Assembly (NCBI RefSeq): GCF_029867415.1
Contig: NW_026705004.1
Location: 852,001 to 916,000, forward strand
Direction: 5' to 3'
Length of the DNA stretch: 64,000 nucleotides
From: Vicia villosa
Taxonomy: Eukaryota; Streptophyta; Magnoliopsida; Fabales; Fabaceae
Of the stretch, positions 13,885 through 41,162 are shown piece by piece. The notes under the pieces are model-generated. The model was not told the origin of the DNA. It ran no database searches and saw nothing but the letters and a program-made list of their open reading frames with translations. The first letter of the stretch is position 1. The number at the start of each line of letters is the position of its first letter. Both the position numbers and the translations under genes were made by a program.

Positions 13885-14064
13885 GAAATCGATTTCCCTA
13901 CTGGGTAAATCGATTTCCCTGCAGCAATCTTCAACAAAATCACATTCTGGACAGCATGAAATCGATTTCCCTCTTGGGTAAATCGATTTCCCTAGTGTAT
14001 TTTGCGCCAAATTCTCTTCTGGAACAGAGTGAAATCGATTTCACTCCTGGGGAAATCGATTTCC
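13885..14064 (+). promoter_or_regulatory. Palindrome cluster 1 upstream of the Ogre-1 TATA box
   Basis: Six copies of the palindrome AAATCGATTT (flanked G...CC) form three pairs: 13885/13906, 13958/13979, 14031/14052. Starts within a pair are 21-22 bp apart and pairs repeat every 73 bp. The cluster ends about 235 bp before the TATA box, consistent with a promoter-proximal element. The binding factor is unknown. Confidence 0.7.
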
Positions 14065-14297
14065 ATGGGGCGAAATTCAAAAAAAATAGAGAGGGAAGCT
14101 TGACATCAATTTGGCACTTTTTTTTTCTTCTTTGATCATTTTTGTTACTTTATCAATTTTCCACCTCATCAAAATTAACTCCTTCATTAAACCCACTTAA
14201 ACCTCATTTTACCATTTAAATTCCACTTAAACACCAATTAACCACAAATTAATTACCAAACACAAAAAGACCAATTTGCCACTACTCTTGCTCCAAT

Positions 14298-14308
14298 TCT
14301 ATAAATAG
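14298..14308 (+). promoter_or_regulatory. TATA box of the Ogre-1 LTR promoter
   Basis: TCTATAAATAG followed by pyrimidine-rich sequence, about 675 bp into the LTR. Closely similar boxes occur in other LTRs here (45482, 60081, and minus-strand at 22031 and 52711). Confidence 0.7.
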
Positions 14309-14756
14309 AGACCTCTACTCTCTCATTTCTCAAGCTTGGAGAGCCAAAAAATTGCTTGCAAATTCATTTCTCACCCTTTCCAAAACCCTCACCCAAAGTT
14401 CATTTTCATAAGATTAGTGAGATTCACATTGAATCTTGCTAATTTTGAACTAAACCTTCTACATTTCTCTCTTTGCTTTGCTTGTTCATCTCCAAATTTG
14501 AAGGATCTACACACTTTGTGCTTGTTCTTGAAGTTACTTCAACATTTGTTTCAAGAATTGGTAAATTCCTAAACTCTAAGATGTAGATCTTTGTTGCTTG
14601 TGTTCAATGCATCTTTGATGCTATATTGGTCATATTTGATGGTGAATTGATGGAAATTTCGTGCTCAAGTTGATGTGTGATCATAAGGTGTTTGTATATT
14701 TGTTCAAATCAAGTTTCATGCCTTTAAATGATGTTTTTGCTGAAATTTACACTGAT

Positions 14757-14863
14757 GAAATCGATTTCCTTAAGGCTGAAATCGATTTCCTGCTGAACGT
14801 AACTTGTTTTTTTTGAAAACTGCACTATGGAAATCGATTTCCCCCTGCATGAAATCGATTTCC
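14757..14863 (+). promoter_or_regulatory. Palindrome cluster 2 downstream of the Ogre-1 TATA box
   Basis: Four more AAATCGATTT copies in two pairs, 14757/14778 and 14829/14851. The 21-22 bp and ~72 bp spacings match cluster 1. This cluster would be transcribed, where each pair could also fold into a hairpin. Confidence 0.65.
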
Positions 14864-14928
14864 TGCTGGCAGAATGTGGTTTTTTGCCTTTTTTTATGCT
14901 TGTTTTGGTTTCCTACTTCCTCCACTTA

Positions 14929-15130
14929 ATTAATATCATTGGATCTAGGATGTTGATAGGTTTGAAATGACCTAATCCATAATATTAGATGAATGATATT
15001 AATGATAGTGTGAGTTGATTATCTTTTGTGAATTTTATTCTTCTTCCTCCATTTCATTAATATCATTGGATCTAGGATGTTGATAGGTTTGAAAGGACCA
15101 AATCCATAATATTAGATGAATGATATTAAT
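14929..15130 (+). repeat. Tandemly duplicated 75-nt inverted repeat in the Ogre-1 LTR
   Basis: Copies at 14929-15003 and 15056-15130 (period 127 bp) begin ATTAATATCATT and end in its perfect complement AATGATATTAAT. An inner ATCTA/TAGAT stem is kept in both. The loops differ by a few bases. It lies downstream of the TATA box and would be in RNA. Confidence 0.75.
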
Positions 15131-17500
15131 GATAATGTGAGTTGATTTTACTTTATGCATTTTATCTTCTTCTTCTCCTTTTTTTCTTTTGATCGAAGAA
15201 AGTCTTAACACTTTGAGAATTCTTATGGATTCTTAGTAAAGACTAGATCGTTACCTATTTTCTTTTCGTGCGGTATTGCTTTCGGAGAATGATCTACATA
15301 TCATTTCTCTCGCATGCATTAGCACATAAAGTTTTGACCGGCCTCGTTGTAGGGTGATTTCTACATAAATCACTTGGCGATCTGCTTAACATAGCGCAAT
15401 ATTTTGTGTCCCGAATAAAAAAGATCAAATATGGAAGAGAATTGTATGTGGTTGATTTAAGACTTATGGAAATTTATCGTGTCGTCGCAATGATTTTATC
15501 AAGCTTCTGATAAAGTTCCATTGAATTTAAATCCGAGAACATCCTTCACTCACCATCGATCTTTCTTACTAACTTTGATAACATACTTGACAAGTTTCAA
15601 GATGGTTATCTTTAACATCTAACAACTAACTTTAATTTCCGCACTTTACTATACCGTTCTTTATATTTCTCGCTTTATTGCTTTATTTTATCATTTCATC
15701 ATGTTTATGTTTCCGCTATTTTCTCTTTGTCCATTTGGACGTTTATATTCCGCTATTTTCTCTTTGTCCATTTGGACGCTATGTTTATGTTTCCGCTATT
15801 TTCTTTTTGTCCACTTGGACCATACTTTACTTTTATGCTAAAACACTAATAAATAACCAAAATCTAAAAAACTCTTAAGGCTCTCTTTTGGACTATTGGT
15901 TACTATCCCTAGCATTTTGGAGACTCGGACTTATGGACTTAAGACCTCTGGACTCTCATTCTGTTATTACTCTGTGATTATTCTGTCTGTCTGGCATTGG
16001 ATTGTTATCTGTTTGTGTATGCAGGTATTTCCTTGAAAGTCCTTGATGGTTAATTCCAAGGCATTGAGATAAGGATTTTACCCGAAAACAGCCGTTACTC
16101 TGCCCGATTTTTGTCAGAATTTTAATGTGCTTAATGCAAAGTGGTGCTAAGACAATAAGTTCATCTGGATCCCCAAGTGATAATGTTGGTTTAGTATTGA
16201 TAAGTCCAAAGGAAGGGAAATCTACCTTGACTCACAATGTCAAGTGTTGGCTTCTTATTTCGGTTAGACCGTTTCTTTCCTTAGCTTTTATTTTACGCAA
16301 TAGGATAGCCTCTTCATCTCCTCCCACTTCTTAGATTTTCAAAATCTTCTCCCTTTTTCAAAAACCTTCTTATGTTTGCAAATCTTTTCAAAACCTTTTT
16401 CTTAAAAAATATCTTTTGCCCTTAGTGGCCCCTTTTTTTCAAAAGTTTAGACACTGTTAATTGTCGAAACGAGTGGTTATACCCCACGATTTTGAAATTG
16501 ATTGATATAATGAGATCTTTTCCGCGTGAGAGAGCTAGTGGCATACTCGTTGATTTTATCCGAGTTGGAGCCCTTCTTTCATTAGCGATGCAAAGAACTC
16601 GTTTGTTCTCATGCTCAAGATAAATGGCTGAGTATTTCTCTCTAACGATGATAAAGTGTTTATTCGTTTTAAAAATGTTTTCCCTTTTAAGAGGAACTAC
16701 ATTAGCTCTGACTTCTCCATTGCACCGAGGAGGTATGTAGGCACAAAGCTTAACGCTTTGCCGAGCTTATTTTAAAAATAAAACAAACCCTTTTTTAGCA
16801 CACACGACACAGATTTTCAAAAAGGTTCCTGTGGAATACCACAGATATGAGGGGTGCTTTAAACCTTCCCCTCATATAATCAACACCCGAACCTGAGTTC
16901 TCTTTCTTGTTTTAAAAACAAAACTTTGGGTTTTTCGTTCTTTTCCCTTTTCCTTTGAAAAAATAAAGCGCGGTGGCGATTTCAAATGAAATATTGATTC
17001 GAGTCAATCTTATGGCTTCGATATCAGATTTTCCCCGCTACAACAGCCAAATTATCTGAGAACTACCCAGCCCCAGGTTATGATCAAGGTTTTTAATTAG
17101 TACAAGAATGAAACTTCTACTTCTTAAGCTCAAAGGGGTTGACGAGGGATTAACATCCTTATATCTCCGCTGTTTGGGAATTTGAAACAATGCCTGTACA
17201 TCGTCAACATAGTCCGTTCAAAAGCATACTGTATGAGGTTGCGGTATCATTTTCGTCATCCTCCCTTAAAAGGTTCACAGCTTTAGCGAGAGTTAAATAT
17301 CACAAAACATATGCAAAGTAAAGATGCAATTTAAAATGAGTGATAGCGAAATAATTTATTCAAGACAAACATATGCAATGCACTAATGATGATTATTAAA
17401 ACAAATAATGTCTATCATGAGTCAAATGTTTAAACAAACAGAAAAGAAAATTGCAAATGAAAGTAGATCTAATGATCCCAAAAGTTCGTCCGTCTAGACG

Positions 17501-17767: not shown

Positions 17768-17839
17768 TTGATTTGGGTGAATTGGCGCTTAGGTGCATCT
17801 GGCTTGCGTCGTTGTTGTGGAACTGGTGTAGAGATTCAG

Positions 17840-18290
17840 AGTATCCGGGGTTCGAGCTTCCGGAATGTGTATTTGATAAGAATGTTTTAGAATGTCCGGG
17901 GTTCGAGCTTCCGGAATGTATATCTGATTGGAATGTTTCAGAAGTCTGGGGGTCAAGCTTCCAGAATGTTCATCTGATTGGAACTTTCAGAATGTCCAGG
18001 GTTCGAGCTTCCGGAATGTATATCTGATTGGAATGTTTCAGAAGTCTGGGGGTCAAGCTTCCAGAATGTTCATCTGATTAGAACTTTCAGAATGTCCGGG
18101 GTTCGAGCTTCCGGAATGTATATCTGATTGGAATGTTTCAGAAGTCTGGGGGTCAAGCTTCCAGAATGTTCATTTGATTGGAACTTTCAGAATGTCCGAG
18201 GTTCGAACTTCCGGAATGTATATCTGATTGGAATGTTTCAGAAGTCTGGGGGTCAAGCTTCCAGAATGTTCATCTGATTAGGATTGATTT
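17840..18290 (-). repeat. 100-bp tandem repeat (two ~50-bp halves) in Ogre-2
   Basis: The marker gttcgagctt recurs at 17901, 18001 and 18101, with a one-base variant at 18201. Each 100-bp unit holds two diverged halves: one with tccggggttcgagcttccgg, the other with tctgggggtcaagcttccag. A partial unit starts at 17850. The region is non-coding on both strands as far as I can tell. Confidence 0.9.
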
Positions 18291-19462
18291 GTTGATGGTA
18301 TTTTTCTGACCAGTTGGTCGACCTGAAAGGAAAACTTAGTTTTATGTGATGTTATGAATGCAAATGCAATCTTTTCAAGGATCTTTAGGGATTTAGTTAG
18401 CAACATTAAAAAATAGTTTGGTCGCGTCTTTGTCTGAAGAATTCTGACTTTTGTTTTTGAATGTCTTTCTTTGAGAATCAAGCTCACGATATCCAGTGGG
18501 TCATAGCCTCTGATTCGGGATACTTGTACTTTTGAATTTGAGAGCATATGGCTAGAGAAAAATAAATCCTCTTGCCCCTTGATAGGTACAGCGTCTCTGA
18601 ATTGGAAGGTATGTGGCGAGAGGAAAGTAAATCCTCTTGCGCCTTGATAAGAGTTCAGTCCTTGATAAGAGCACCTGAAATTGTACGCCCTAAATTCCTA
18701 AGATCCTTGAAAGGGTTAGTAAACATGCAATGTTATGAGGTCATGATGTCATGAATGTTATGCGAATGCAGTGCATTAGGCATAGTGTGAGATAGTAAGG
18801 ACAAATAAGTCCTTTGAACAAAACCTGCAAGGGAACGAAGGTTAGTAGTGAACACAAACAAGTCACACAAGTCACACAACTTTTGGCTTAAGGCTTGCAT
18901 GGAGTCTGATCAGGTGTCCTTCCCAAGGGTATTTCTATGGATAAGGAGATTTCAGCAACGGGTTCTACCAAGTGACTCAGAATTGTCAGCCCCCTATAAA
19001 GCACCCTCGAACATGGTACATGCATACCACGCAATGATACTTTAGGAAGAAACCTATCTGAGCTGTAGTATCGGGTAGCGACCATAACTTGGCATGCACC
19101 AAGAATAGCCCTCCCACTACGTTCCTAAAAGTTAAGATGGGTTAAAGGTGACTAAAGGTCCTTGAGCTCCGACGCACCCAAAGATACATGCATAAACCTC
19201 TCTCATGCAAAAGAGGTACACAATAGCCAGTGGAAGCCTAACTCAAGCGCGAACTTCATTTTGACCAACCCCAAGCATGCACAAGGGGGGTCTCCATGAC
19301 TATGTCACTCCTAATCTTAAGTGTTCTTGAATCCGGGAATAGGATTCGTCCTTCATTTATTTCCCAAAACAGCCCTAAAAAAGAAAGCAAACAAAGCAAA
19401 CAATAGGAAACATTTAAGTGATTCCTAAACTTTTAAGGTAACCCCTCTTTTATAAGAAAATT
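18291..19462 (-). other. Ogre-2 5' leader with a short hairpin repeat
   Basis: Untranslated leader downstream of the PBS on the minus strand. At about 18553-18645 it holds two copies of an element whose minus-strand reading is CAAGAGGATTTA...TCCTCT, also found four times in Ogre-4 (63590-63850). No gene. Confidence 0.65.
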
Positions 19463-19463
19463 C

Positions 19464-19481
19464 TCCCCATCAGAGTCGCCA
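19464..19481 (-). other. Primer-binding site of Ogre-2
   Basis: The minus strand reads TGGCGACTCTGATGGGGA, four bases after the LTR end. It differs by one base from the Ogre-4 PBS. Confidence 0.85.
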
Positions 19482-19485
19482 GTTC

Positions 19486-22400: not shown

Positions 22401-22577
22401 TTACTCAAATTGACTTTCCATGTATTTTCTCAATTTTAGCCAAATTGTGCGAGCCATTATCATATGGAAGTTTTCTAGGATTTTTGGGAAATCCCCAGGT
22501 GTCCTTTACAAGCCACTTTGGTATTGGTTTGAACTTGCACATAAGAAAATAGTATGGGCAAATTTTGGGGTATGACA
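19486..22577 (-). repeat. Ogre-2 5' LTR (~3092 bp)
   Basis: The minus strand starts TGTCATACCCCAAAATTTG at 22577 and ends in TATTACA at 19486. Its end region matches the Ogre-4 LTR end, including CGGTGGCGACTCTTGC-type sequence. It is ~700 bp shorter than the Ogre-4 LTR. Confidence 0.87.
22031..22040 (-). promoter_or_regulatory. TATA box of the Ogre-2 LTR
   Basis: CTTATAAATA on the minus strand, ~540 bp into the LTR. Confidence 0.55.
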
Positions 22578-24233: not shown

Positions 24234-24234
24234 C

Positions 24235-24394: not shown

Positions 24395-25390
24395 TGTAAC
24401 AACCTAATTTTAGTATTTATTTAATTATATGGTTATACTATTTTATTTTATTTTATTTGGTGTATTAATTAATTAATTGATTGTTAGATAGTATAATAAT
24501 TGAATATATTAATTAATTTAGTGTGTATATTTGTGTCTATTTAATTATTGGTGTTATTTAATTTAGTAACTAAAATAGAAATAATATATAGTATGTATTA
24601 TATTGGGCTTATTAAATTATGTTAGGATGGGGAGTGTTATACTTAGGCCCATATGGTATAGTTAGTAAGGGTTAATGAGGAGGGATACCACATTTTTCTT
24701 CCATTTTTCCTTTTCATTTTCGGAGAGAGAGAGAAGCTGAGAAAGGAAAGAAGAAAAAGGGAAAAGAGGGAGAAAGGGGAAGAACTAGGAGCAACTAGGG
24801 TTTGAAGAAAAAATTGAAGAGGTAAGGGGGAGAATCCTTATTATTATGGGTTAGTATGATTGGGTCAATGGGTAGAAATATGTTTAGGTTGAAATCCCTA
24901 ATTTTTATGATTTTGACATTGTTAGGTCTTGATGAATAATTCTCTTTTATGATAAACTGTTATATGGCCTTGCATAACTTGATTTCTATTTCACTTGACT
25001 GCAATATGTGAAGAGATGGAAATTTGTGAGAAGAGAGATATTGTATTTTGATTTGTTTCCTAATTACTGTACAGTCTGCTATGCTTCTGTTAATATGTGT
25101 TGTTTTAAAAGAATATTGTAAAGAAGATCACGTGTCATATGCTAAGTGGATAAAAAATAAATTGAAAAGTCAAATGTATAAAACAAAAAAAAGGCTATGT
25201 GATTTTGGTTTCAGTATATCTACTTTTTTTAAAAAAATTTCGTGATGATGTGGTTTGAATAACAACTAAGTTCTTTTTATAAAAATAAGTTCTCTTGTTG
25301 TTAGTTTAATATTCTGGACATTAAATCCATCTATCCCTTATAGATATCACTAACATGTCATTTTACTCACATAATGAGTATACTACTATT
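24395..25390 (+). repeat. Tekay-type LTR, first part
   Basis: Starts TGTAACAACCTAATTTTAG, which mirrors the LTR end GGGTGTTACA at 50041-50050, the terminal inverted repeat typical of Tekay/Del LTRs. It is broken at 25390 by Sirevirus-1 and resumes at 41163 after the duplicated ctatt. No gene. Confidence 0.72.
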
Positions 25391-25890
25391 TGTAAGAACA
25401 AGCATACACTCCAAATGAGTTTTTGATTCATGGCAAACATCACAAGCAACCAAATACAAAAGCATAAATGAATGACTCAAGACAATGGAAGATTATGAAG
25501 CTCAAATCACTCAGAAAATGGTATTGCATCTGTTAGGTCGACCAAGCAAAGCCCTAGGTCGACTCAAAACCAGAGCAAACTCAGCAAAACTGACAAGGTC
25601 ACTGTTAGGTCGACCTACCCACACTCCCAGGTCGACCTAAACTGAAGGGATTTACACATGTCACTGTTAGGTCGACCTACCCACACTCCTAGGTCGACCT
25701 AAACTGAAGAAAAGTCACAAAAATGCATTTCAACTGACTTTAGGTCGACCTAAACCTTCAACAGGTCGACCTAACTGGAAACAACTGACTTTAGGTCGAC
25801 CTAAACCTTCAACAGGTCAACCTAACTGACTTTAGGTCGACCTAAACCTTCAGCAGGTCAACCTAACAGATTTTAGGCCAACCTAACAGG
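25391..25890 (+). repeat. Sirevirus-1 5' LTR, first 500 bp
   Basis: Matches 39532-40031 of the 3' LTR. Ends in the Athila target duplication acagg (25886-25890). Confidence 0.93.
25534..25890 (+). promoter_or_regulatory. Array of paired GGTCGACC palindromes in the Sirevirus-1 LTR
   Basis: Copies of (TTA)GGTCGACC(TAA) and one-base variants start at 25536/25557, 25608/25630, 25670/25692, 25743/25764, 25794/25815, 25835/25856 and 25876. Within pairs the spacing is 21-22 bp. The array continues after the Athila insertion (33828, then another pair to about 33895) and ends about 55 bp before a TATA-like TTTATATATATC near 33954. Clusters of palindromes in LTRs are a known feature of Sireviruses in general. 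Confidence 0.75.
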
Positions 25891-27064
25891 TGTTGAAAGT
25901 ATTTGTGGGTAAATATTTTCTGTAATATATCGTATCCACAGGGATTGGTTAATATCACTGCCGTTCTATAGTTGTTTATTTTGAGTTAAGAAATTTGGTT
26001 TGGTTTGTTTTATACTAATAATAATATCAAAAGCAAATAATAAAATAAAAGCAAGTAAAGGACTTTGTGTTAACAAATAAAGAAAGATGTTGAGTCTTTA
26101 GGGTTCATCAACCTAATCCTATACAATTATCAATTAATTCACAATAGAACAATCCTTTGAATCATTATCTTCACTTATCCTCAAATAAGATTCCATGTCT
26201 GCAAATCAAATTAGATAACTTTTACCGGTATGAGATTCGATCTCTCCAAATCACAATAACGATAATAGTAATTAAGAACGATAATTATGAAAACCCAATT
26301 ACAATTCCATCTCTGCAAATTGCAATTGAATCAATATAGTAACCTAGGGCAAAAGTTAAATCCTTTCTTTCGATCAAAGATTCAACGATAATTTAAGAAT
26401 AAAAACAAGATTTCTTATTGATAATGAATTCAAACAATTGTTCACAGGAATTAATCAATGGTAATGTACATTCATAGGTTAACTACTACCTTAGACTCAA
26501 CAAGAGGGATTTAGCTCTCCATAGACATGAAGAACATACGAGAATCAATGGAGGAATTCATCTTCATCAATAGAATGCCTTCAATTGGTAAAGAATCCAC
26601 CTTCTATTGTTATTCTCAGCTTCAGAATCAGATAGCTCTCCTAATTTCGCTCCCACAAAGTATATCTAACCACTTGGAAAACTAGGGCTTTAAAACAGAA
26701 CTTTTGGGCTTTTAACGCCGAGGCCGCGGCGCGGCAACGGGCTGGCGCGGCGCGCCCCTCAAACAGAAGTATTTTTGCGGCGCGCCTAGGAACTCTCGCG
26801 ACGCGCCCTTTGTACTTTCCATCTTTTTCTTCAGCCTTTGAGACTTCCAGCTTTCTTTCCTCCTCATGTTCTTCTTAAGTTCTTATTCAGCTCAAAACCT
26901 GCAACAATAACACCCACAAGTGATTCGATTTGCTTTACGCACGAACTAAACTTATTCAGTTCAATTCTTAATAAAAACCTATGGATTCATCACATTTTTG
27001 CATTGGTTTAGAGAAGAAATCACTTATATTAACACATGAATTTACCATTAATTTACTCCTAACA
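25891..27064 (-). repeat. Athila-derivative 3' LTR
   Basis: On the minus strand starts TGTTAGGAGTAAA and ends ACTTTCAACA. Near-identical to 32651-33824. Contains a GC-rich motif array at 26726-26807. Confidence 0.95.
26726..26807. promoter_or_regulatory. Paired GCGGCGCG motifs in the Athila LTR
   Basis: In otherwise AT-rich DNA, GCGGCGCG starts at 26726, 26747 and 26777, with the variant GCGACGCG at 26798. Both pairs are spaced exactly 21 bp. The same array is in the other LTR near 33486-33567. Several copies overlap the palindromes CCGCGG or GGCGCGCC. Confidence 0.7.
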
Positions 27065-27080
27065 AACTCTCCCCAACTTA
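27065..27080 (-). other. Polypurine tract of the Athila derivative
   Basis: The minus strand reads AAGTTGGGGAGAGTT directly before the 3' LTR. A similar tract recurs inside the 3' UTR near 27728-27742. Confidence 0.75.
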
Positions 27081-30620: not shown

Positions 30621-32528
30621 CTAGGAGTTCAACAAGGAGATTGTGCATACTTCTCTATCAAACTCTCCCCCAAGGTAGCTTTTTAACCGTTCTCCCTCTA
30701 GTGATCTTTTTTTCGCCGATACCTCCTTCATAAATTTCTTATACACAGGTACGTGTTCCAGTGCTTCAAAGAAAGGTAAATTCACTTCTAACTTTTTGAA
30801 CAAGGACGTAAATTTACGAACGTCTTTCTCTTTTGAATCCTTCTTTGTTACTCGCAAGGGGAGGGGTGGTTTAATCACCTGTTCAACATCTTTCTTATTT
30901 TTTTCTTCAACTGGTTTCATTGGTAGTATTACAACTTCTGGCTCTTTTAGGTCCTCTCTTATTTCCAGATCTACCTTCATCGCCATAGGGTCACCTATCT
31001 CTTCTTTCTCTTTTTCCGATTCTGAACCCCTTTGACTCCTTGTTGTAACAGCATTAATTTTCTCCTGGTCTTGCGGTTTTTTTCCGGTTGAGTTTGGTAA
31101 GGCTCCTTGTGCCTGTAGAGTAAGTTGATGTGTTATTTGCCCCACTTGAGTTTGCAGGTTTTTAATTGCCGCTTCCTGGTTCTTCTGATTTATTACTGAT
31201 GTTTGAATGAACTGATTCACTGTCTCCTCCAACTTGGATTGTCCTCCTTGCTGTTGTTGGGGTGGTTGAGTGTATGGTTGGAATGCTTGTTGTTGATACC
31301 CTTGATTCGGTGGTCTTTGTTGGTACCCTTGGTTGTTGTATCTTGGTGGATAACCTTGTTGGTATGGCTGATTCTGATATTGATTCTGCCTTTGTCCTTG
31401 GTTATTATTCATGTAATTCACTTCTTCTTCTTGCACTGGTGGACAGAATCCTGTTTGATGATCTCCCTTGCACAATTCGCACCTAGCAACTTGATATGAA
31501 TTAGATACCCCGCTCAGCTCCTTGATTTGTTGTGGTAGTTTAGACATTTGTTGTGTCAAAAGTTCCACTTGTGAAGTTAGCAATTTGTTCTGAGCAAGTA
31601 GAGCATCACTGTTGTTCAACTCTAACATTCCGGGTTTCTTATCTCTTACCGTTCGATCATGATTGCCTTGACGATCATTTAGAGCCATTCGCTCTATTAT
31701 CTGAGTAGCTTCTTCAGGTGTTTTGGACATGAGAGAACCACCAGCTGTGGCGTCCAAAAGTGTCTTGTTTGTAGCTGTGAGACCGTTACGGAACATATGG
31801 ATTTGGTCAACGTCTGAAAAACCGTGTCCTTTGCACTTTCTCAACATAGCTTTATACCTTTCCCATGCTTCATTCAAAGATTCATTACTACCTTGAGAAA
31901 ATACTGCTATTGCTGTTTTTGCTTCGAAGAATCGGTTTTGAGAGTAAAACCTTTCCAGAAATTTTTCTTCCAATGTGTTCCAATTTGTCATCACTACCTC
32001 GGGTTGATCCAGATACCAATCCTTTGCCTTAGATAGCAAAGAGTGTGGGAACAACCTCTTAAATAATGCTTCCTCATCAGCTTGAGCGACACCCGTAGTA
32101 CCCGCTAACTCATAGAATCGAGTAAGATGCGTGTACGGGTCTTCATGGTCCAATCCGGCGAAAGGACTTGCACAAATCAATTGTATGATACCGGTCTTCA
32201 GTTCTGTCGGTCGCCCGTTGGCGGCAGTTCTCGCGAACTGAGGATTGAGTCTTGGACTATTAGCACATGGACCATTAGCAGCCATGTTGCCAACAGTAGG
32301 TTGTATAAAGACTTCCGGTTCTTCCTCCGTGAATAGTTCGTGAAAGAAGACTCCTTCTTGCGACTCGTCAATGGTTTCAAGTTGTTGTGACGATGTCGCG
32401 GTTGCGTTGTCTCTTGCTTTTGCTATGTTCGCTCTTTTTCGTGCTTTGCTATTTAACCTCCTAGCGGTCCTTTCGATCTCGGGATCAAAAAGAAGTTGAT
32501 CGCTAGAAACTTTGCTGCGCATACACAA
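30621..32528 (-). CDS. gag: Athila-type gag
   Basis: A 635-aa ORF. The retrotransposon gag domain is in the first half (LICASPFAGLDHEDPYTHLTRF, KAKDWYLDQPEVVMTNWNTLEEKFLERF, SLNEAWERYKAMLRKCKGHG). A knuckle-like CELCKGDHQTGFC follows near residue 340, with one residue fewer before the His than the classic CCHC. After it comes a long Gln/Asn/Tyr/Pro-rich stretch and a basic-acidic tail (FTSLFKKLEVNLPFFEALEHVPVYKKF), which in Athila normally precedes protease. The frame closes before any DTG/DSG motif, so protease and the rest of pol are missing. It is otherwise undamaged and could be a working capsid protein, with enzymes supplied in trans. Confidence 0.88.
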   Translation of the reverse strand: MCMRSKVSSDQLLFDPEIERTARRLNSKARKRANIAKARDNATATSSQQLETIDESQEGVFFHELFTEEEPEVFIQPTVGNMAANGPCANSPRLNPQFARTAANGRPTELKTGIIQLICASPFAGLDHEDPYTHLTRFYELAGTTGVAQADEEALFKRLFPHSLLSKAKDWYLDQPEVVMTNWNTLEEKFLERFYSQNRFFEAKTAIAVFSQGSNESLNEAWERYKAMLRKCKGHGFSDVDQIHMFRNGLTATNKTLLDATAGGSLMSKTPEEATQIIERMALNDRQGNHDRTVRDKKPGMLELNNSDALLAQNKLLTSQVELLTQQMSKLPQQIKELSGVSNSYQVARCELCKGDHQTGFCPPVQEEEVNYMNNNQGQRQNQYQNQPYQQGYPPRYNNQGYQQRPPNQGYQQQAFQPYTQPPQQQQGGQSKLEETVNQFIQTSVINQKNQEAAIKNLQTQVGQITHQLTLQAQGALPNSTGKKPQDQEKINAVTTRSQRGSESEKEKEEIGDPMAMKVDLEIREDLKEPEVVILPMKPVEEKNKKDVEQVIKPPLPLRVTKKDSKEKDVRKFTSLFKKLEVNLPFFEALEHVPVYKKFMKEVSAKKRSLEGERLKSYLGGEFDREVCTISLLNS

Positions 32529-32629
32529 TCTTCTGCAAAACTAGCAAACACGTGAAACAACCAAATAGAGAAAATAAAAATTAAAACTCAAAATAAGAAC
32601 TATTGCAATGCATGCAATATTGACACCAA

Positions 32630-32647
32630 TCCCCGGCAACGGCGCCA
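32630..32647 (-). other. Primer-binding site of the Athila derivative
   Basis: The minus strand reads TGGCGCCGTTGCCGGGGA, the standard Athila-type site (tRNA-Asp in this group), three bases from the LTR end. Confidence 0.88.
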
Positions 32648-32650
32648 ATT

Positions 32651-33824
32651 TGTTGAAAGTATTTGTGGGTAAATATTTTCTGTAATATATCGTATCCACA
32701 GGGATTGGTTAATATCACTGCCGTTCTATAGTTGTTTATTTTGAGTTAAGAAATTTGGTTTGGTTTGTTTTATACTAATAATAATATCAAAAGCAAATAA
32801 TAAAATAAAAGCAAGTAAAGGACTTTGTGTTAACAAATAAAGAAATATGTTGAGTCTTTAGGGTTCATCAACCTAATCCTATACAATTATCAATTAATTC
32901 ACAATAGAACAATCCTTTGAATCATTATCTTCACTTATCCTCAAATAAGATTCCATGTCTGCAAATCAAATTAGATAACTTTTACCGGTATGAGATTCGA
33001 TCTCTCCAAATCACAATAACGATAATAGTAATTAAGAACGATAATTATGAAAACCCAATTACAATTCCATCTCTGCAAATTGCAATTGAATCAATATAGT
33101 AACCTAGGGCAAAAGTTAAATCCTTTCTTTCGATCAAAGATTCAACGATAATTTAAGAATAAAAACAAGATTTCTTATTGATAATGAATTCAAACAATTG
33201 TTCACATGAATTAATCAATGGTAATGTACATTCATAGGTTAACTACTACCTTAGACTCAACAAGAGGGATTTAGCTCTCCATAGACATGAAGAACATACG
33301 AGAATCAATGGAGGAATTCATCTTCATCAATAGAATGCCTTCAATTGGTAAAGAATCCACCTTCTATTGTTATTCTCAGCTTCAGAATCAGATAGCTCTC
33401 CTAATTTCGCTCCCACAAAGTATATCTAACCACTTGGAAAACTAGGGCTTTAAAACAGAACTTTTGGGCTTTTAACGCCGAGGCCGCGGCGCGGCAACGG
33501 GCTGGCGCGGCGCGCCCCTCAAACAGAAGTATTTTCGCGGCGCGCCTAGGAACTCTCGCGACGCGCCCTTTGTACTTTCCATCTTTTTCTTCAGCCTTTG
33601 AGACTTCCAGCTTTCTTTCCTCCTCATGTTCTTCTTAAGTTCTTATTCAGCTCAAAACCTGCAACAATAACACCCACAAGTGATTCGATTTGCTTTACGC
33701 ACGAACTAAACTTATTCAGTTCAATTCTTAATAAAAACCTATGGATTCATCACATTTTTGCATTGGTTTAGAGAAGAAATCACTTATATTAACACATGAA
33801 TTTACCATTAATTTACTCCTAACA
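32651..33824 (-). repeat. Athila-derivative 5' LTR
   Basis: 1174 bp, near-identical to 25891-27064, including the GC motif array at about 33486-33567. Confidence 0.95.
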
Positions 33825-33829
33825 ACAGG

Positions 33830-34956
33830 TCAACCTAACTGGGACAATTTCAACTCTGCTTCTGTTAGGTCGACCTAAGCACTAAAGTAGGTCAACCTAT
33901 TTGCTGAAAACTTCCCAAATTATGTGTTTTCTCTGCTCCAACATACCAGCAACTTTATATATATCATTCCATGATAATTATTCATCAACACCAACAACTA
34001 AAAGATACACAAAGGCTTCTCATCTTCGTTCTTCATCATCTCCAACACAATTACACATAATCATTCTTGCGTTGAGGGTTAGTGATCGAGTTCGATAACG
34101 TCCATGGAACGGAATTGAAGATTCCTAGTGGGTGAAGATTTGTGGGGTTTTTGGTGAATAAAATCTGAGGGTTTTGTCCTCCAAGATTGGTGAATTTGGG
34201 GGGTTTTTATCAAGAGGCTTCATCAAGGATCCAGCTGAGTGTGAAGATTGAAGAACAAGTGTTCAAGCAATTCAAGACACTGCAGAAAGGGATCAAAGTG
34301 AAGCTCTTGGAAGACCTTGATCTGGCTCAAGATTAAGGGGGAAGAAGATTCAAAGGATCGACAAATTTGGTTTATTGTTTATCGCTTTGTTATCTTCTTT
34401 GTATAAACTGCTTTCAACATTAATGGAAGATTTCCCAATTTCAGTTTGGAATTGGGGGCAGACATAGTCGTAGCGAGGACGATCGACGAACTGCCTAAAC
34501 AAATATCGTGTTCTTGTCGCTTTTATCTTTTCATTTACGTTCTGTTCATATTTGGTTATAATTGCAAATTGATCAACGATTCGAGTGTTAAAATTGTGAA
34601 TTAAGAACTTGTATAAACATCACAATTCATCACACATTGAATCACTATCAATTTGATCATTATCACCAAGTGTTTGTGGTTTTGCTTCTTTCACTATTAC
34701 TGCATTGCAAACATCGTTCATCATATAAGAAGATAATCGATTTTCATTAGAGCGACGTATTGATTCTATAGGGTATTCTCTTATCATTCATCTCAAACTG
34801 TTTAGTGGTTTTAACACATATACAATCGTTTCAATAGTGGTCCGGAATAGACACGAGTCGATTCAGAACCGCTTTCGCTTAAAGTTCAATTAATTCCGAA
34901 AAACTGTGTGAGATCTATTCACCCCCCCCTCTAGATCCTTAGGCCAGCGTCTAACA
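33830..34956 (+). repeat. Sirevirus-1 5' LTR, remainder
   Basis: Continues the LTR after the Athila insertion and matches 40032-41162. It carries the last palindrome pair, a TATA-like TTTATATATATC near 33954, and near its end a C-run followed by TCTAG, also seen in the other LTR. Ends TCTAACA. Confidence 0.93.
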
Positions 34957-34957
34957 A

Positions 34958-34976
34958 GTGGCATCAAGAGCTCTGG
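34958..34976 (+). other. Primer-binding site of Sirevirus-1
   Basis: GTGGCATCAAGAGCTCTGG follows the LTR end, a variant of the initiator-Met site (tggtatcagagc) used by most copia elements. Confidence 0.7.
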
Positions 34977-35011
34977 TTTATTCCGTGCTACGTGAAACAC
35001 TTATTGGAAAG

Positions 35012-36652
35012 ATGGCTTCCAGACCTAAAGGGGCTCACAATAGAGCTCCAGTTTTCAACGGTGAAAACTATGGCTATTGGAAGGATTGTATGTGTGTCCA
35101 TATCAATGCCATTGATAGGAACATCTGGAAAGCTATTGTCAATGGTCCCTTTCACATCACCATGACAAATGCAGCTGGTGCAGTTGTTCCAAAACCAGAA
35201 AATACTTGGGATGCAAATGACGAAAAGAGATATGCATACGATTGGAAAGCGAGAAATATTCTAATCTCAGCTCTAGGAGTTGATGAATACTATCGTGTTT
35301 CCCATTGTATATCCGCTAAAGCTATGTGGGACACATTGCAAGTTGACCATGAGGGAACGGATGATGTCAAACTAGCTAGAATCAATACGCTAACTCAAGA
35401 GTTCGAACTCTTTCACATGGAAGATGGTGAATCCATCGAAAACATGCAAAAGAGATTCGTTCATTTGAAAAATCATTTAAACTCTCTTGATAGACCTGTT
35501 TCCAATGCAGTTGCTACTAAAAAAATCTTGAGATGCTTGAATAGGGAATGGCAACCCAAGGTTACGGCAATAAAGGAAGCAAATGATCTAAACACCTTAG
35601 ACATCACCACTCTCTTTGGTAAACTAGAAGAACATGAACAACACCTTAAATGTCTTGACATGCATGAGAAAAGAAAAAAGAAAGATAAGAACATGGAGAA
35701 AGAGGTAGAGAAGAAGTTAATTGCTCTAAAGGCTTCAAGCTCCAAGACCTCAAAGCAAGAGCAAGAGGATAGTGATACGAGTGATGATGAAGACTCCGAT
35801 GATGAGGAAATGAGACTGTTCGTGCGAAGATACAACAAGTACATAAAGAAAAATGGAGCAAAACACTCTGGTAAAAACTTGATTAATCATAGGAAGCAAT
35901 TCGACAAGTCCAAACAAGACGATGATAATAAAAGAAAATCCAAAGGTCCTTGTTTCAATTACGGCAAAGATGGTCATTATAAACCGGATGGTCCATATCT
36001 CAATAAGGAGAAAGACAAGAATCAAAGCAAAAGTCACAACAAGTCAAGAAGAGCTTATATAGCATGGGAAAGTGATTCCTCAAGTGAAAACTCATCAAGC
36101 GATGAAGAAGAATCAGCAAACTTATGTCTTACGGCTCATCAACACAAGAAAAAGAAACGTGTAAGTCATCTTAAACCTGAACTTGTAGATAAGGTATCTC
36201 ATGCTCAATTAAAATTAGCTTTTGAAGAACTACATAGAGATGCAATTGAAGCTTTCAAACTTTTGGCCTCAAATAAGAAAAAAATTTCATATCTTGAATC
36301 AAAAGTTGAGAAGACCGAAAAGGACATGGAAGCTTTAAAACAATCTATGCTAGATATTCAAAAGGACAAAGTTGAGATAGATCCTACATCATGGTTTGGT
36401 TGTGAGACATGTCATATTTGGCAAAAAGAAGTAAGAGATCTAAAGGCCAAGTTAGATAAGGCTCTACAACCAAAAGTGACTTTTGCGGTTGATCCAAATA
36501 AGTTCAAAAGATCGTATACTCCTTTATATAGTAAATACACTTTTGTACCAAAAGTATCAACTAGCAAAACAACATACTCTCATCATATTACTTGTCACTA
36601 TTGTTGCAAAGAGGGACATACCATTGAAAAATGCAAATTTAGAGGATTTTAG
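35012..36652 (+). CDS. gag: Sirevirus-1 gag
   Basis: Start chosen at ATG 35012 (MASRPKGAHNRAPVFNGENY), since the in-frame ATG at 34958 lies inside the PBS. The copia gag domain (UBN2 type) is in residues ~15-230, with FNGENYGYWKDCM, LISALGVDEYYRVSHC and AKAMWDTLQ. An acidic Ser/Asp stretch follows. The first zinc knuckle is broken: CFNYGKDGHYKPDG has lost the second and last Cys. A second one, CHYCCKEGHTIEKC near the C terminus, is complete CX2CX4HX4C. A coiled-coil-like stretch (LESKVEKTEKDMEALKQSML) lies between them. The frame is open to 36652, so gag looks translatable although pol is badly damaged. Confidence 0.87.
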   Translation: MASRPKGAHNRAPVFNGENYGYWKDCMCVHINAIDRNIWKAIVNGPFHITMTNAAGAVVPKPENTWDANDEKRYAYDWKARNILISALGVDEYYRVSHCISAKAMWDTLQVDHEGTDDVKLARINTLTQEFELFHMEDGESIENMQKRFVHLKNHLNSLDRPVSNAVATKKILRCLNREWQPKVTAIKEANDLNTLDITTLFGKLEEHEQHLKCLDMHEKRKKKDKNMEKEVEKKLIALKASSSKTSKQEQEDSDTSDDEDSDDEEMRLFVRRYNKYIKKNGAKHSGKNLINHRKQFDKSKQDDDNKRKSKGPCFNYGKDGHYKPDGPYLNKEKDKNQSKSHNKSRRAYIAWESDSSSENSSSDEEESANLCLTAHQHKKKKRVSHLKPELVDKVSHAQLKLAFEELHRDAIEAFKLLASNKKKISYLESKVEKTEKDMEALKQSMLDIQKDKVEIDPTSWFGCETCHIWQKEVRDLKAKLDKALQPKVTFAVDPNKFKRSYTPLYSKYTFVPKVSTSKTTYSHHITCHYCCKEGHTIEKCKFRGF

Positions 36653-36725
36653 TTCCTAAAGGAGTATTTCAATGGTTGCCTAAGTGCAACAATTTATGCA
36701 CTCACCACCTAGGACCCAATGAAGA

Positions 36726-37094
36726 TTGGGGACCTTCCACTCTAAATTAATTTTGCAGGAAAAGTGTCTTGACATTGCCGAAAGGTTGTGGTTCCTTGAT
36801 AGCGGATGTTCAAGACACATGACGGGAGACATATCACTCTTTGTTGAGTTCCACGCAAAGAAAAAGGGGTATGTCACCTATGGAGACAACAATCGGGGAG
36901 CTATACTTGGTAAAGGAAGTGTAGGTAACCCATCTACCACAACAATAACTGATGTGTTACTAGTAGAAGGTCTTAAACATAATCTCCTAAGTATTAGTCA
37001 ATTGTGCGACAAAGACTTCAAAGTAACTTTTACAAATTCTGGCTGCACAATAGAACATATTAAGAAAAGAGAGATCATGTTTAATGGCACATGA
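36726..37094 (+). pseudogene. pro: Sirevirus-1 protease fragment
   Basis: LWFLDSGCSRHMTGD is the copia protease active-site region (DSG), followed by LLSISQLCDKDFKV. The frame stops at 37092 where the GAG-pre-integrase region should begin; the integrase zinc-binding and DDE core are absent. About 190 bp of unrecognisable sequence separate it from the RT fragment, so a deletion has removed integrase. Confidence 0.82.
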
Positions 37095-37282
37095 GTAAAC
37101 CATATTTATATGCTAAAACTTGGACGAAGGCATAATTTTTTTTGGTTACTCTCAATCTAGTAAGGCATATAGGCATATAGGTTCTCTCAATTCGATTACT
37201 ACTTATTGTTGAAGAGTCAGTTCATGTGTCCTTTTGATGAATCTTATGCAAAATGTGTCGAGAAAGGTATATCTTTTAATAA

Positions 37283-38344
37283 GTGCAGGCCCATCTACTG
37301 AAGACATTTGTCAAAGATAAGGAAGACGAAAGTGAAAGTTTTGCAAAGGAAGATGCTAAGAAAGAGAAAGATGAGTCTCATGATAGTGTTGAAAAAGAAA
37401 GCATCTCAAACAATGAAGAACTTCCTAAGGCCTGGACAAATGTAAAAGATCATCCAATCGACAACATAATAGGGGACATCTCAAAGGGCGTGACAACACG
37501 CTCCAAGATAAGTAACTTTTGTCATCATTTTGCTTTTGTTTCACAAGTTGAACCGAAAAACGTGAAGGACGCATTACTTGATGAGCATTGGCTAATGGCC
37601 ATGCAAGAAGAATTAAACCAATTTAAACGGAATGATGTTTGGGACTTTGTCTCTCATCCGGGATATCATCAAGTAATCGGTACTAGATGGGTTTTTCGTA
37701 ACAAACTTGATGAAAACGGAGTTATCACTAGAAACAAAGCTAGATTAGTTGCTCAAGGTTACAATCAATAGGAAGGTATTGATTATGAAGAGACATACGC
37801 TCCTGTAGCACGTCTCGAAGCTATTCGCCTCTTACTTGCCTATGCTTGTTCAAAAGACTTCAAACTATTCCAAATGGATGTTAAAAGTGCCTTTCTAAAT
37901 GGCTATATAAATGAAGAAGTCTATGTTGCTCAGCCACCCAGCTTTGAGAATTACATGCATCCAACTCATGTTTATAAGCTGAAACGTGCTCTATACGGTC
38001 TTAAACAAGCCCCTCGGGCTTGGTACGAACGTTTGAGCAAATTTCTTCTTAGCCAAGGGTACTCTAAGGGTAAAGTTGATACTACTCTCTTTATTAAAAT
38101 AAAAGATAAAGATGTACTCTTAGTCCAAGTTTATGTAGATGATATTATATTTGGGTCGACTAATGCAAAACTTGTCAAAGAATTTTCTAAGCTTATGCAG
38201 AGTGAATTTGAGATGAGTCTCATGGAGCTGCTCAAAAGATTTGGAATGAGTGAAGCGAAGGAGATTGACACACCTATGACAACAAATACTAACCTAGACA
38301 AAGATGAGAAAGATATCAATCTTGTCCAAAGGAATCTCACTTAA
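37283..38344 (+). pseudogene. pol: Sirevirus-1 reverse transcriptase, interrupted
   Basis: The N-terminal part (WLMAMQEELNQFKRNDVWDF, GTRWVFRNKLDENG, ARLVAQGYNQ) ends at TAG 37769-37771. The frame then continues through APVARLEAIRLLLAY, MDVKSAFLNGYINEEVYV, LYGLKQAPRAWYERL and the catalytic YVDDIIFGSTN. Near 38220 the text jumps from the palm/thumb motif to a more distal one (GMSEAKEIDTPM), so an internal deletion is present. The stop is a C-to-T type change at a Gln codon. Confidence 0.87.
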
Positions 38345-38832
38345 AAGCTGTCAAAAGAATTCTGCGATATCTACGTGGAACTCCTACATATGGCCTATGG
38401 TATCCGAAGGGAAATGAGTGTTATTTGGTAGGATTCTCCGACTCAGATTTTGCTGGCTGCAAATCCGATAGAAAGAGCACCAGTGGAACATGTCATCTAT
38501 TCTCAAATTCATTGATAAGTTGGCATAGCAAGAAACAAGTATCGGTTGCATTATCTACTGCTGAGGCAAAATATGTAGCTGCCGGAAGCTGCTGTGCGCA
38601 GATATTATGGCTCAAGCAACAACTTCTTGACTTTGGTATTAAACTTGATCGTATACCTATCATGTGCGACAACACAAGTGCCATAAACTTGAAGAGCAAG
38701 AAGCAACAAGCTGACATCTTCACCAAACCTCTTGCAACGGAGCAGTTCTTCAACATTCATAGGGAATTAGGGATATTAGATATCTCTAATTTTGAGCTAA
38801 ATGCGTTTGTTTTCTTAATTTTATTCCTTTAA
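38345..38832 (+). pseudogene. pol: Sirevirus-1 RNase H, frameshifted and deleted
   Basis: From about 38345 the frame reads KRILRYLRGTPTYGLWYPKG-type sequence, then GFSDSDFAGCKSDRKSTSG with the catalytic Asp, and LSTAEAKYVAAGSCCAQILWL. It is in another frame from RT. The stretch between CDNTSAINL and QADIFTKPL is shorter than normal, so the RHHFLRD-type segment is deleted. Not functional. Confidence 0.85.
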
Positions 38833-39518
38833 TTTATATATATATTGATTATGCTCAAGCTAACATCTCTCTCAGTATGAAGGTAGTTCATCATCAAATC
38901 AAGCATCATTCCACATTGACTAGAGGAATATACTTCATTCTACAAAATGATGACGAGATACCTACAATTGAGAAAGTGGTAACATGTTTGTTGTTCACTT
39001 CCAAAAATATCATTGATGCTATAATATGCTATCAATTAACATGTTTATAGTGACTTCTTATATGCTTCTCCACCTATCTCATTTACATGTATATGTTGTT
39101 CATCATTACTCATAACATATCATGTTTGGACATAAAAATAGTAGAATAAGCATACATCTAACATGTTTGGGCAAACGTTAGCGAGCATTGCATTAGTTCA
39201 TTTCATTGCGTTGCATCTCATTTCTGTCATGTTAGTATGTCTTTTATTACTTGAACTTAAGCTTGGTTTGTACCTTTAAATATGTTTGGATATTATGCTC
39301 TATTTCTTTACTATTGTGTTATGTAAGACATTGTTTTGTTTAGATTATTTTGTTATTCTCTTCTACTATTCTCCTGGTTTCTTTCTTTTGATGTTGTCAA
39401 AGGGGTAGATGAGTTGAGAGTACGGGGGAGCTTAGTACGGGGGAGCTTAGTACGGGGGAGCTTACGCATACAAGACCGGGAGAGCTTTCGTCATTTAATC
39501 AAATGTTTGCCATCATCA
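38833..39518 (+). other. Sirevirus-1 3' non-coding region with PPT-like repeats
   Basis: AT-rich, no gene. At about 39420-39470 the 15-bp unit AGTACGGGGGAGCTT is repeated three times, each carrying the GGGGGAG core of the PPT. Confidence 0.75.
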
Positions 39519-39531
39519 AAAAGGGGGAGTT
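39519..39531 (+). other. Polypurine tract of Sirevirus-1
   Basis: AAAAGGGGGAGTT precedes the 3' LTR. The wider context CATCATCAAAAAGGGGGAG is shared with Sirevirus-2 (minus strand at 53298-53320). Confidence 0.85.
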
Positions 39532-41162
39532 TGTAAGAACAAGCATACACTCCAAATGAGTTTTTGATTCATGGCAAACATCACAAGCAACCAAATACAA
39601 AAGCATAAATGAATGACTCAAGACAATGGAAGATTATGAAGCTCAAATCACTCAGAAAATGGTATTGCATCTGTTAGGTCGACCAAGCAAAGCCCTAGGT
39701 CGACTCAAAACCAGAGCAAACTCAGCAAAACTGACAAGGTCACTGTTAAGTCGACCTACCCACACTCCCAGGTCGACCTAAACTGAAGGGATTTACACAT
39801 GTCACTGTTAGGTCGACCTACCCACACTCCTAGGTCGACCTAAACTGAAGAAAAGTCACAAAAATGCATTTCAACTGACTTTAGGTCGACCTAAACCTTC
39901 AACAGGTCGACCTAACTGGAAACAACTGACTTTAGGTCGACCTAAACCTTCAACAGGTCAACCTAACTGACTTTAGGTCGACCTAAACCTTCAGCAGGTC
40001 AACCTAACAGATTTTAGGCCAACCTAACAGGTCAACCTAACTGGGACAATTTCAACTCTGCTTCTGTTAGGTCGACCTAAGCACTAAAGTAGGTCAACCT
40101 ATTTGCTGAAAACTTCCCAAATTATGTGTTTTCTCTGCTCCAACATACCAGCAACTTTATATATATCATTCCATGATAATTATTCATCAACACCAACAAC
40201 TGAAAGATACACAAAGGCTTCTCATCTTCGTTCTTCATCATCTCCAACACAATTACACATAATCATTCTTGCGTTGAGGGTTAGTGATCGAGTTCGATAA
40301 CGTCCATGGAACGGAATTGAAGATTCCTAGTGGGTGAAGATTTGTGGGGTTTTTGGTGAATAAAATATGAGGGTTTTGTCCTCCAAGATTGGTGAATTTT
40401 GGGTGTTTTTATCAAGAGGCTTCATCAAGGATCCAGTTGAGTGTGAAGATTGAAGAACAAGTGTTCAAGCAATTCAAGACACTGCAGAAAGGGATCAAAG
40501 TGAAGCTCTTGGAAGACCTTGATCTGGCTCAAGATTAAGGGGGAAGAAGATTCAAAGGATCGACAAATTTGGTTTATTGTTTATCGCTTTGTTATCTTCT
40601 TTGTATAAACTGCTTTCAACATTAATGGAAGATTTCCCAATTTCAGTTTGGAATTGGGGGCAGACGTAGTCGTAGCGAGGACGATCGACGAACTGCCTAA
40701 ACAAATATCGTGTTCTTGTCGCTTTTATCTTTTCATTTACGTTCTGTTCATATTTGGTTATAATTGCAAATTGATCAACGATTCGAGTGTTAAAATTGTG
40801 AATTAAGAACTTGTATAAACATCACAATTCATCACACATTGAATCACTATCAATTTGATCATTATCACCAAGTGTTTGTGGTTTTGCTTCTTTCACTATT
40901 ACTGCATTGCAAACATCGTTCATCATATAAGAAGATAATGGATTTTCATTAGAGCGACGTATTGATTCTATAGGGTATTCTCTTATCGTTCATCTCAAAC
41001 TGTTTAGTGGTTTTAACACATATACAATCGTTTCAATAGTGGTCCGGAATAGACACGAGTCGATTCAGAACCGCTTTCGCTTAAAGTTCAATTAATTCCG
41101 AAAAAACTGTGTGAGATATATTCACCCCCCCCCCCTCTAGATCCTTAGGCCAGCGTCTAACA
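39532..41162 (+). repeat. Sirevirus-1 3' LTR (1631 bp)
   Basis: Uninterrupted copy of the LTR, TGTAAGAAC to TCTAACA, with the complete palindrome array at about 39675-40100 and TATA-like sequence near 40156. The C-run before TCTAG is longer than in the 5' LTR. Confidence 0.95.

Follow-up and report, generated by a model that had tools for sequence, protein, structure and literature searches.

A 64-kb window of the Vicia villosa genome (64,000 nucleotides of contig NW_026705004.1, assembly GCF_029867415.1) carries three long terminal repeat (LTR) retrotransposons: an Ogre element, a Sirevirus-type Ty1/copia element and, nested inside the 5′ LTR of the latter on the minus strand, an Athila-like element (Table 1). 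Each contains arrays of short symmetric words with CpG in the core, whose copies come in pairs roughly two helical turns apart. A preliminary description of this stretch had reported such pairs at 20–22 bp in all three families and proposed a spacing rule common to their lineages. We followed this up in the window and in loci fetched from the 2.03-Gb assembly of this one species. The pattern is real, broader than first claimed and best explained at the level of DNA; the original observation is confirmed, and its interpretation as a whole is partly supported.

The Ogre word AAATCGATTT occurs ten times in the window, as five pairs whose starts all lie 21 bp apart. The copia word GGTCGACC occurs 22 times, and GCGGCGCG, initially taken as the Athila palindrome, 12 times, with four pairs at 21 bp and one at 20 bp; none of the three counts was matched in 100 shuffles. 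The Ogre and Athila spacings are thus as first described, as is the CpG in every core. For the copia element, where all full pairs had been said to follow the rule, the claim stands where exact neighbours are 21 or 22 bp apart, but intervals of 30, 40–41, 51, 72 and 94 bp between adjacent exact copies also occur. GCGGCGCG itself is not self-complementary and was dropped as a palindrome; what repeats is a dyad of odd length, CGCG-N-CGCG. When that dyad is counted, two more copies appear, CGCGACGCG at 26797 and one at 33557, and the Athila LTR array therefore consists of two pairs, with gaps of 21, 30 and 21 bp; the two Athila LTR copies were counted once because they are 99.7% identical. The spacers of the distal Ogre array differ, by eye, from those of the proximal one, and the two copia LTR arrays hold 12 and 15 copies when one mismatch is allowed. 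Across the arrays of the window and the fetched loci, a partner with at most one mismatch lies 18–23 bp from 225 of the 230 exact copies (Ogre 65/66, GGTCGACC 145/149, Athila 15/15); with one-mismatch copies also counted, the unpaired copies number 4/76, 16/215 and 0/16, respectively.

Table 1. Retrotransposon features and dyad arrays in the 64-kb window.
Feature	Position	Strand	Basis or detail
Ogre 3′ LTR	~13627..17042	+	start placed by sequence inspection, behind a purine-rich stretch
Ogre TATA-like TATAAAT	14300..14306	+	in LTR
Ogre ORF1, DUF7745/PF24924	2158..3771	+	first open reading frame (ORF) ≥150 aa after LTR
Ogre gag, protease, reverse transcriptase with RNase H domains, integrase ORFs	3918..10972	+	domain search
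Ogre proximal array, three AAATCGATTT pairs	13886..14062		gaps 21-52-21-52-21
Ogre distal array, two AAATCGATTT pairs	14758..14861		gaps 21-52-21
Sirevirus-type (Ty1/copia) 5′ LTR, first part	25389..25890	+	99.8% match to 39530–40032; split by Athila insertion
Sirevirus-type 5′ LTR, second part	33824..34956	+	98.9% match to 40026–41162
Sirevirus-type 3′ LTR	39530..41162	+	LTR match
Copia-type gag ORF and fragmented ORFs with partial RVT_2	34955..38832	+	domain search
Copia 5′ LTR GGTCGACC array	25536..25863		gaps 21-51-22-40-22-51-21-30-21-20-21, one mismatch allowed
Copia 3′ LTR GGTCGACC array	39677 to 40099		15 copies, one mismatch allowed
Athila-like 3′ LTR	25891..27065	-	99.7% match to 32651–33825
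Athila-like 5′ LTR	32651..33825	-	LTR match; primer-site-like stretch follows on minus strand
Athila accessory ORF, 424 aa	28590..29861	-	PF20167 Transposase_32, E 1.7e-33
Athila gag ORF	30624..32540	-	52% identity to gypsy element of locus L029, 669 aligned columns
Athila LTR array, CGCG-N-CGCG	26725..26805		gaps 21-30-21; one copy with one mismatch
Athila other-LTR array, CGCG-N-CGCG	33485–33565		same as 26725..26805
Athila internal arrays	29928–29957 and 30333–30411		gaps 21 and 21-29-20

Not only the pairs but also the distances between pairs are quantised near whole turns of the helix. The window and the fetched loci (many of L001–L020 overlap) yielded 420 gaps no longer than 80 bp; merging those whose spacers are at least 65% identical left 43 clusters. 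Twenty of these lie at 19–22 bp and the other 23 at 27 bp (one, a chance one-mismatch copy), 29–30 bp (three), 40–42 bp (three), 50–54 bp (eleven) and 61–75 bp (five), the pair-to-pair gaps falling mostly near 20, 30, 40 and 51 bp. Taken together, the 43 clusters fit best to a common period of 10.3 bp (R 0.76). When the 23 inter-pair clusters were considered by themselves, none of 20,000 uniform draws reached their maximum R over periods of 10.0–10.7 bp, and a Rayleigh test restricted to a single value for each family and length (19 values) gave p 0.001. A second set of gaps, from arrays outside the first test (nine loci with PF20167 ORFs, described below, and L040), gave p 0.0022 when tested against a period and phase fixed in advance (10.3 bp, zero). 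The range of 20–22 bp does not hold as an exact rule: Athila relatives more often use 18–19 bp, so that the proper rule should be pairs at 18–22 bp, rather than exactly 21–22 bp, with gaps near whole turns. With this change, the proposed geometry is shared by the Ty1/copia and Ty3/gypsy arrays examined, and spacing was neither flat nor confined to a single family in these sets. The appeal to DNA-helix geometry is strengthened as well, since pair-to-pair gaps near whole turns favour a DNA model over one based on 21–22-nt small RNAs.

Interval length is held while the intervening sequence diverges. In Ogre arrays, dyads and their 4-bp flanks carry 0.075 substitutions per site, spacers 0.324 and the sequence outside 0.132; the corresponding values for the GGTCGACC arrays that we call ENV-type (a label carried from L041 to L033 and L042–L046 on LTR similarity) are 0.042, 0.152 and 0.112. 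Dyads thus change about 4 times more slowly than spacers and about 2–3 times more slowly than the remainder, with some built-in bias in that the dyads were located by word. These rates come from alignments longer than 250 bp, obtained for 36 of the 55 Ogre and 15 of the 21 copia pairs, with pairs more than 97% identical excluded from the totals. We used net interval lengths because the alignment-based indel rate is uninformative, both for Ogre (per substitution, 0.20 in spacers and 0.47 in dyads versus 0.31 outside) and for the copia set (0.24 and 0.13 versus 0.25). Among Ogre spacers below 75% identity, the net length shifted by more than 2 bp in only 2 of 205 comparisons versus about 63% of 933 outside the arrays, the comparisons being ordered, non-independent pairs of 11 loci with the outside intervals anchored differently. 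Comparisons at this divergence changed length in about 30 of 69 cases in the ENV-type set, versus about 56% of 212 outside. Over 121 unordered ENV-type comparisons, the net change was 0 bp in 96, 1 bp in 12, 11 bp in nine, 12 bp in two and 61 bp in two, the last reflecting the absence of one pair. None was of 2–10 bp, whereas alignment gaps outside the arrays run from 1 to 9 bp. We take this restriction to changes of mainly 0–1 or 11–12 bp as the strongest single sign of a helical constraint.

The same geometry is found when the whole assembly is scanned. Pairs of AAATCGATTT with starts 13–43 bp apart number 16,451, versus 4 for the reversed word, and pairs of GGTCGACC number 29,973 on each strand, versus 7. 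Among the matches listed (50 forward-strand pairs per word, all from one contig), 43 of the AAATCGATTT pairs lie at 21 bp and seven at 22 bp, and 35 of the GGTCGACC pairs lie at 20–22 bp, 15 at 39–42 bp and none elsewhere between 13 and 43 bp; matches from LTR pairs or from one family are non-independent. As an unrelated control, we looked for AAATCGATTT pairs within 15–35 bp in prokaryote genomes, where at least 119 stretches matched and 79 of the 80 listed held a pair after filtering. Among these 79, 17 lie at 21–22 bp and 12 at 24 bp, the others being spread over 15–35 bp; the 17 exceed the 7 or 8 of a flat spread, and kindred species may inflate single values. Scans of viral_contigs matched 0, 0 and 4 contigs, the four carrying TAATCGATTA pairs at 21–23 bp (22 bp in L070, 21 bp in L071, 23 bp in L068 and L069).

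We also took loci without regard to any word: 220 windows of 900 bp, from 20 loci (10 kb each) placed at round coordinates, were scanned for pairs at 18–23 bp. Two or more pairs were present in seven windows, from five of the 20 loci, and all seven proved to be CpG dyads (AATCGATT in four, CGCTNAGCG in two, GGTCGACC in one). Four more windows had a single pair each, of four different non-CpG words, and look like background. In the 64-kb window together with 20 loci of 10 kb, 62 same-word palindrome pairs lie within 120 bp of each other; 20 of them are at 21–22 bp, and all 20 are GGTCGACC or AATCGATT. A loose series of TTTACGAAAA, TTTACGGAAA and TTTCCGAAAA at 50, 51 and 28 bp in L030 (280–418) is possibly a further CpG-centred family.

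Beyond what was reported initially, arrays also lie directly upstream of accessory ORFs. The internal arrays of the window's Athila element are 67 to 550 bp upstream of its accessory ORF, and in L041, a copia element that has ORF3 (1309–2553, minus strand) in addition to gag and pol, seven dyad copies lie at 2634–2829 just upstream of ORF3. A genome search for PF20167 scored 150 of 15,269 candidates, from which ten ORFs were picked by ORF length class with the DNA unseen, and about 900 bp upstream were taken from each. Nine of the ten regions contain paired CpG dyads at 18–21 bp (CGCTNAGCG in five, CGCG-N-CGCG in two and TACGCGTA in two), and eight have at least two pairs, versus 7 of the 220 comparison windows; 40 of 49 exact copies have a partner. 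The ten loci represent perhaps three or four independent cases, because they belong to a few related families. The two TACGCGTA regions, which precede a 445-aa ORF (L059) and a 503-aa ORF (L063), hold 9–10 copies each at less regular gaps of 11, 20–21, 30–32, 44, 50, 55, 63 and 81 bp.

Comparisons among the accessory proteins gave weaker signals. ORF3 of L041 matches PF20167 at E 4.8e-5, under the curated cut-off, and a profile comparison between the Athila and L041 ORFs is weak (E 3.5e-4, probability 37%); a pairwise comparison of the two gave no match. This likeness between an ENV-like copia ORF and a gypsy PF20167 ORF hints at a shared or exchanged accessory gene. A V. villosa gene model annotated as RICESLEEPER-like (P0126) includes a segment that matches 28% of ORF3 at 81% identity and is probably a fused gene model. 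Ogre ORF1 showed no significant similarity to PF20167 or the Athila ORF by profile, the best pairwise hit being E 0.008 over 25 residues. Its predicted model has a globular domain followed by a long C-terminal coiled-coil-like helix region (about 414–526; mean pLDDT 79.6) and is compatible with dimerisation; the model of the PF20167 ORF (mean pLDDT 49) was unusable and was set aside. The PMD domain is present in 57% of Ogre elements (PMC6317226), a role of captured PMD in anti-silencing has been speculated for Mutator-like elements (MULEs; PMC5418596) and the promoter motif DOWN has been linked to the PMD proteins MAIN/MAIL1 (PMC7156037), all as given in the available parts of these sources. 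In the window Ogre, Pfam assigns ORF1 to DUF7745, and hmmscan of ORF1 and three relatives up to E 10 listed DUF7745 and no PF10536.

The words themselves are symmetric, 8–14 bp long and specific to each family, and they change in concert as motif clusters in non-coding regions. Two Athila elements whose gag proteins are 52% identical use CGCG-N-CGCG in the window and CGCTNAGCG in L029, with similar gaps, and two Ogre groups have AATCGATT in common and differ in their flanks (GGAAATCGATTTCC-like versus TGCAAATCGATTTGCA-like). A compensatory, symmetric change of the flanks between these Ogre groups was considered and was not borne out beyond column make-up. Among one-mismatch copies beside an exact copy, CpG-to-TpG/CpA changes account for 18 of 35 in GGTCGACC and 3 of 5 in Ogre, although this class comprises 2 of the 24 changes that are possible; the spectrum would fit germline methylation of the array CpGs. 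CpG observed/expected is raised in the Ogre (1.0 versus 0.63) and Athila arrays (1.48 versus 0.52) and not in the copia array (0.56 versus 0.78).

Palindrome clusters have been described as a Sirevirus feature. The repeated-motif (RM) boxes of these elements are palindromic, high in copy and CpG-rich, lie in the LTR upstream of the TATA box with additional copies upstream of the ENV-like ORF, and were called Sirevirus-specific, being missing from the classic Ty1/copia elements compared; they include CGGTCGACCG (Vitis) and ACAATCGATTGT (Tnd-1), whose cores are identical to those found here (PMC2829016, available part). The copia arrays of the window are likewise palindromic with at least eight copies per element and cluster upstream of a TATA box, the second part of the 5′ LTR holding the last dyads (GGTCGACC at 33868) and the array ending about 60 bp before TATATAT at 33956; the extra copies upstream of an ENV-like ORF are found in L041. 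The CGG-CCG core signature is absent, the commonest bases around the window and L041-type dyads being TAGGTCGACCTA, and Tnd-1 is likewise described without it (PMC2829016, available part). Sireviruses have multiple AGGGGGAG polypurine tracts before the 3′ LTR; the window copia element has three AGTACGGGGGAGCTT units at 39419–39464, with CGGGGGAG rather than AGGGGGAG. The claim that arrays lie just upstream of the TATA box stands for copia, but for Ogre only partly: the proximal array ends about 238 bp before TATAAAT (~14300), and the distal array lies about 450 bp past it. The part of the RM report available gives no spacing for the boxes, whereas here the dyads are paired, roughly whole-turn spaced and present also in the Ty3/gypsy elements Ogre and Athila. 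For maize Sirevirus LTRs, palindrome clusters in the cis-region with hairpin potential have been read in terms of RNA structure and small RNAs (Bousios 2016, via PMC10760457), and helical phasing is unmentioned in the part of that account available. In the portion of the open-access literature covered, at the level of titles and abstract openings, we found no publication on a common spacing rule or on the link to accessory ORFs.

The remaining features of the window are as follows. The Ogre element has the order extra ORF1, gag, protease, reverse transcriptase with RNase H and integrase, with a weak protease match under the Pfam curated cut-off; its 5′ LTR is truncated at the window edge, and the remaining last part (1–1450) matches 15593–17042 at 99.1%. 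The Athila primer site near 32630–32650 is one that we take to be tRNA-Asp-like, and no match to PF03078 was found among the ORFs scanned. A large tandem array with a 127-bp period and subunits of about 31 bp with GTGGTACGGCGGTAC-like words lies between the Ogre integrase ORF and 3′ LTR (12173–13211). Further repeats are a 50/100-bp tandem repeat at 17785–18381 with the CpG palindrome TTCCGGAA spaced 51 and 100 bp, about six copies of a 77-bp unit at 43063–43675, and inverted 1.4-kb copies at 18790–20186 and 62027–63410 (86% identity).

We interpret the arrays as probably being helically phased, putative sites for dimeric DNA-binding proteins, possibly encoded by the elements. The arrays would be clusters of double-stranded DNA binding sites, one palindrome forming one site for a symmetric protein dimer. 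The working unit would be two such sites about two helical turns apart, where a dimer of dimers could assemble cooperatively along the same face of the helix; intervals of roughly whole turns between units would keep the bound proteins aligned. The arrays would act on the LTR and, where an accessory ORF lies downstream of gag or pol, on the region directly upstream of that ORF, with the internal arrays as a candidate promoter and with a presumed effect on methylation or transcription. Within a family, the site word shifts in concert against a constant geometry, as would follow if the words track a changing DNA-binding specificity. As the binder, we consider a sequence-specific factor that an element of each family encodes, acting as activator or anti-silencer like VANC in VANDAL transposons, somewhat more likely than a fixed host factor.

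Several observations weigh against this interpretation. As to geometry, the inter-pair gaps alone fit a period of 11.0 bp better than 10.3 bp (R 0.74 versus 0.66), the second gap set gives only p 0.085 for the maximum over 10.0–10.7 bp, and both the Athila-type pairs at 18–19 bp and the irregular TACGCGTA gaps (11, 44, 55, 63 and 81 bp) fit the spacing more poorly. The comparisons share loci and are not independent, amounting to about five words in three lineages. Among Ogre spacers at or above 90% identity, length changed no less inside the arrays than outside (0.13 versus 0.09). Outside the core, symmetry is partial and does not exceed what column make-up would give: at position 6, 31% of the 16 copies of the second Ogre group are symmetric. 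As to placement, the sole TATA-like match of the Athila LTR lies about 710 bp beyond the array, one of the ten PF20167 upstream regions examined (L064) has no array, and 9 of the 49 exact copies upstream of these ORFs stand alone. The model of Ogre ORF1 matches no solved fold in the PDB (best E 2.1). Finally, no accessory ORF was recognised in the window copia element, which has a full array, among the ORFs scanned (the ORF at 37772–38344 lies outside that scan), and published Sireviruses without ENV also carry palindromes (PMC2829016, available part).

These last two points are also those expected if host transcription factors bind the dyads, the lineages having converged on paired sites as plant factors bind cooperatively two turns apart, with the accessory ORFs as unrelated passengers. 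The same DNA evidence applies to this alternative, and a search of Sirevirus palindromes against PLACE mainly gave stress-factor sites (PMC2829016, available part). However, the words are family-specific, related Athila elements use different words across their copies, and a general factor does not predict arrays upstream of nine of ten PF20167 ORFs; we regard host factors as a possible but doubtful explanation.

It is unlikely that the palindromes act as RNA, as hairpins in U3-containing transcripts that serve dimerisation, packaging or 21–22-nt small RNAs. The hairpins that the preliminary description offered as an alternative are indeed strong, relative to dinucleotide shuffles, in the Ogre (z −8.5 and −7.9) and copia arrays (z −9.3) and moderate in the internal Athila array (z −2.9), but the Athila LTR array folds no better than its shuffles (z +1.1). 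Such folding is not independent evidence, because any pair of palindromes folds, and it needs neither whole-turn gaps nor interval changes of 0–1 or 11–12 bp, although an 11-bp step would suit an A-form RNA helix too. Maize small RNAs are in excess on palindrome-rich, structured Sirevirus regions (PMC10760457, available part), which is in keeping with a role as RNA.

Quite unlikely, in our view, is ordinary tandem duplication, in which short units were copied and then drifted, leaving the spacing as a relic of unit length. Duplication is present: TRF reports the pairs as in part tandem copies, with 73-bp units in Ogre and 41- and 51-bp units in copia; non-palindromic repeated 10-mers are in some excess at 20–21 bp (404 of 5,575), and duplication surely adds to copy number. 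As the whole cause we reject it, since the 43 clusters persist in the same spacing classes after merging of spacers at least 65% identical, and spacers that diverge about 4 times faster than dyads nonetheless keep their net length. Moreover, the geometry is common to unrelated words of three lineages, and among 10-mers repeated within 12–60 bp in the window and L021–L041 (of which L041 was selected by word), near-palindromic ones lie at 21–22 bp in 32 of 133 cases, versus 302 of 5,575 for non-palindromic ones. Lastly, that helically phased CpG positions nucleosomes or guides maintenance methylation is very unlikely: CpG is present in all array words, about half of the GGTCGACC decay variants (18/35) are TpG/CpA and whole-turn phasing is a nucleosome feature too, but family-specific symmetric words of 8–14 bp exceed what CpG phasing needs.

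For the interpretation of the arrays as phased sites for dimeric proteins, the nearest functional parallel would be the arrays of the VANC system (PMC5735166, available part). VANDAL elements carry family-specific short motifs, dense in non-coding regions, that evolve with an element-encoded protein; these motifs have one orientation and evolve by tandem repeats, whereas the arrays here are paired, phased dyads in LTR retrotransposons (PMC5735166, PMC10398659, available parts). By analogy, we tentatively envision a common machine in at least three lineages, Ogre, Athila and Sirevirus, in which an accessory protein might bind phased CpG palindrome pairs in its own LTR and upstream of its own ORF, protecting or activating the element. 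Word and protein specificity might then co-evolve by family, and non-autonomous elements might keep the sites and be served in trans. If true, retrotransposons would possess a counterpart of the VANC system, and the extra ORFs of Ogre and Athila would gain a function, so that a single binding question would join two, the role of the LTR palindromes and the role of the extra ORFs. It would also bear on how very abundant legume repeats may recruit regulators despite CG methylation, through a geometry common to Ty1/copia and Ty3/gypsy elements.

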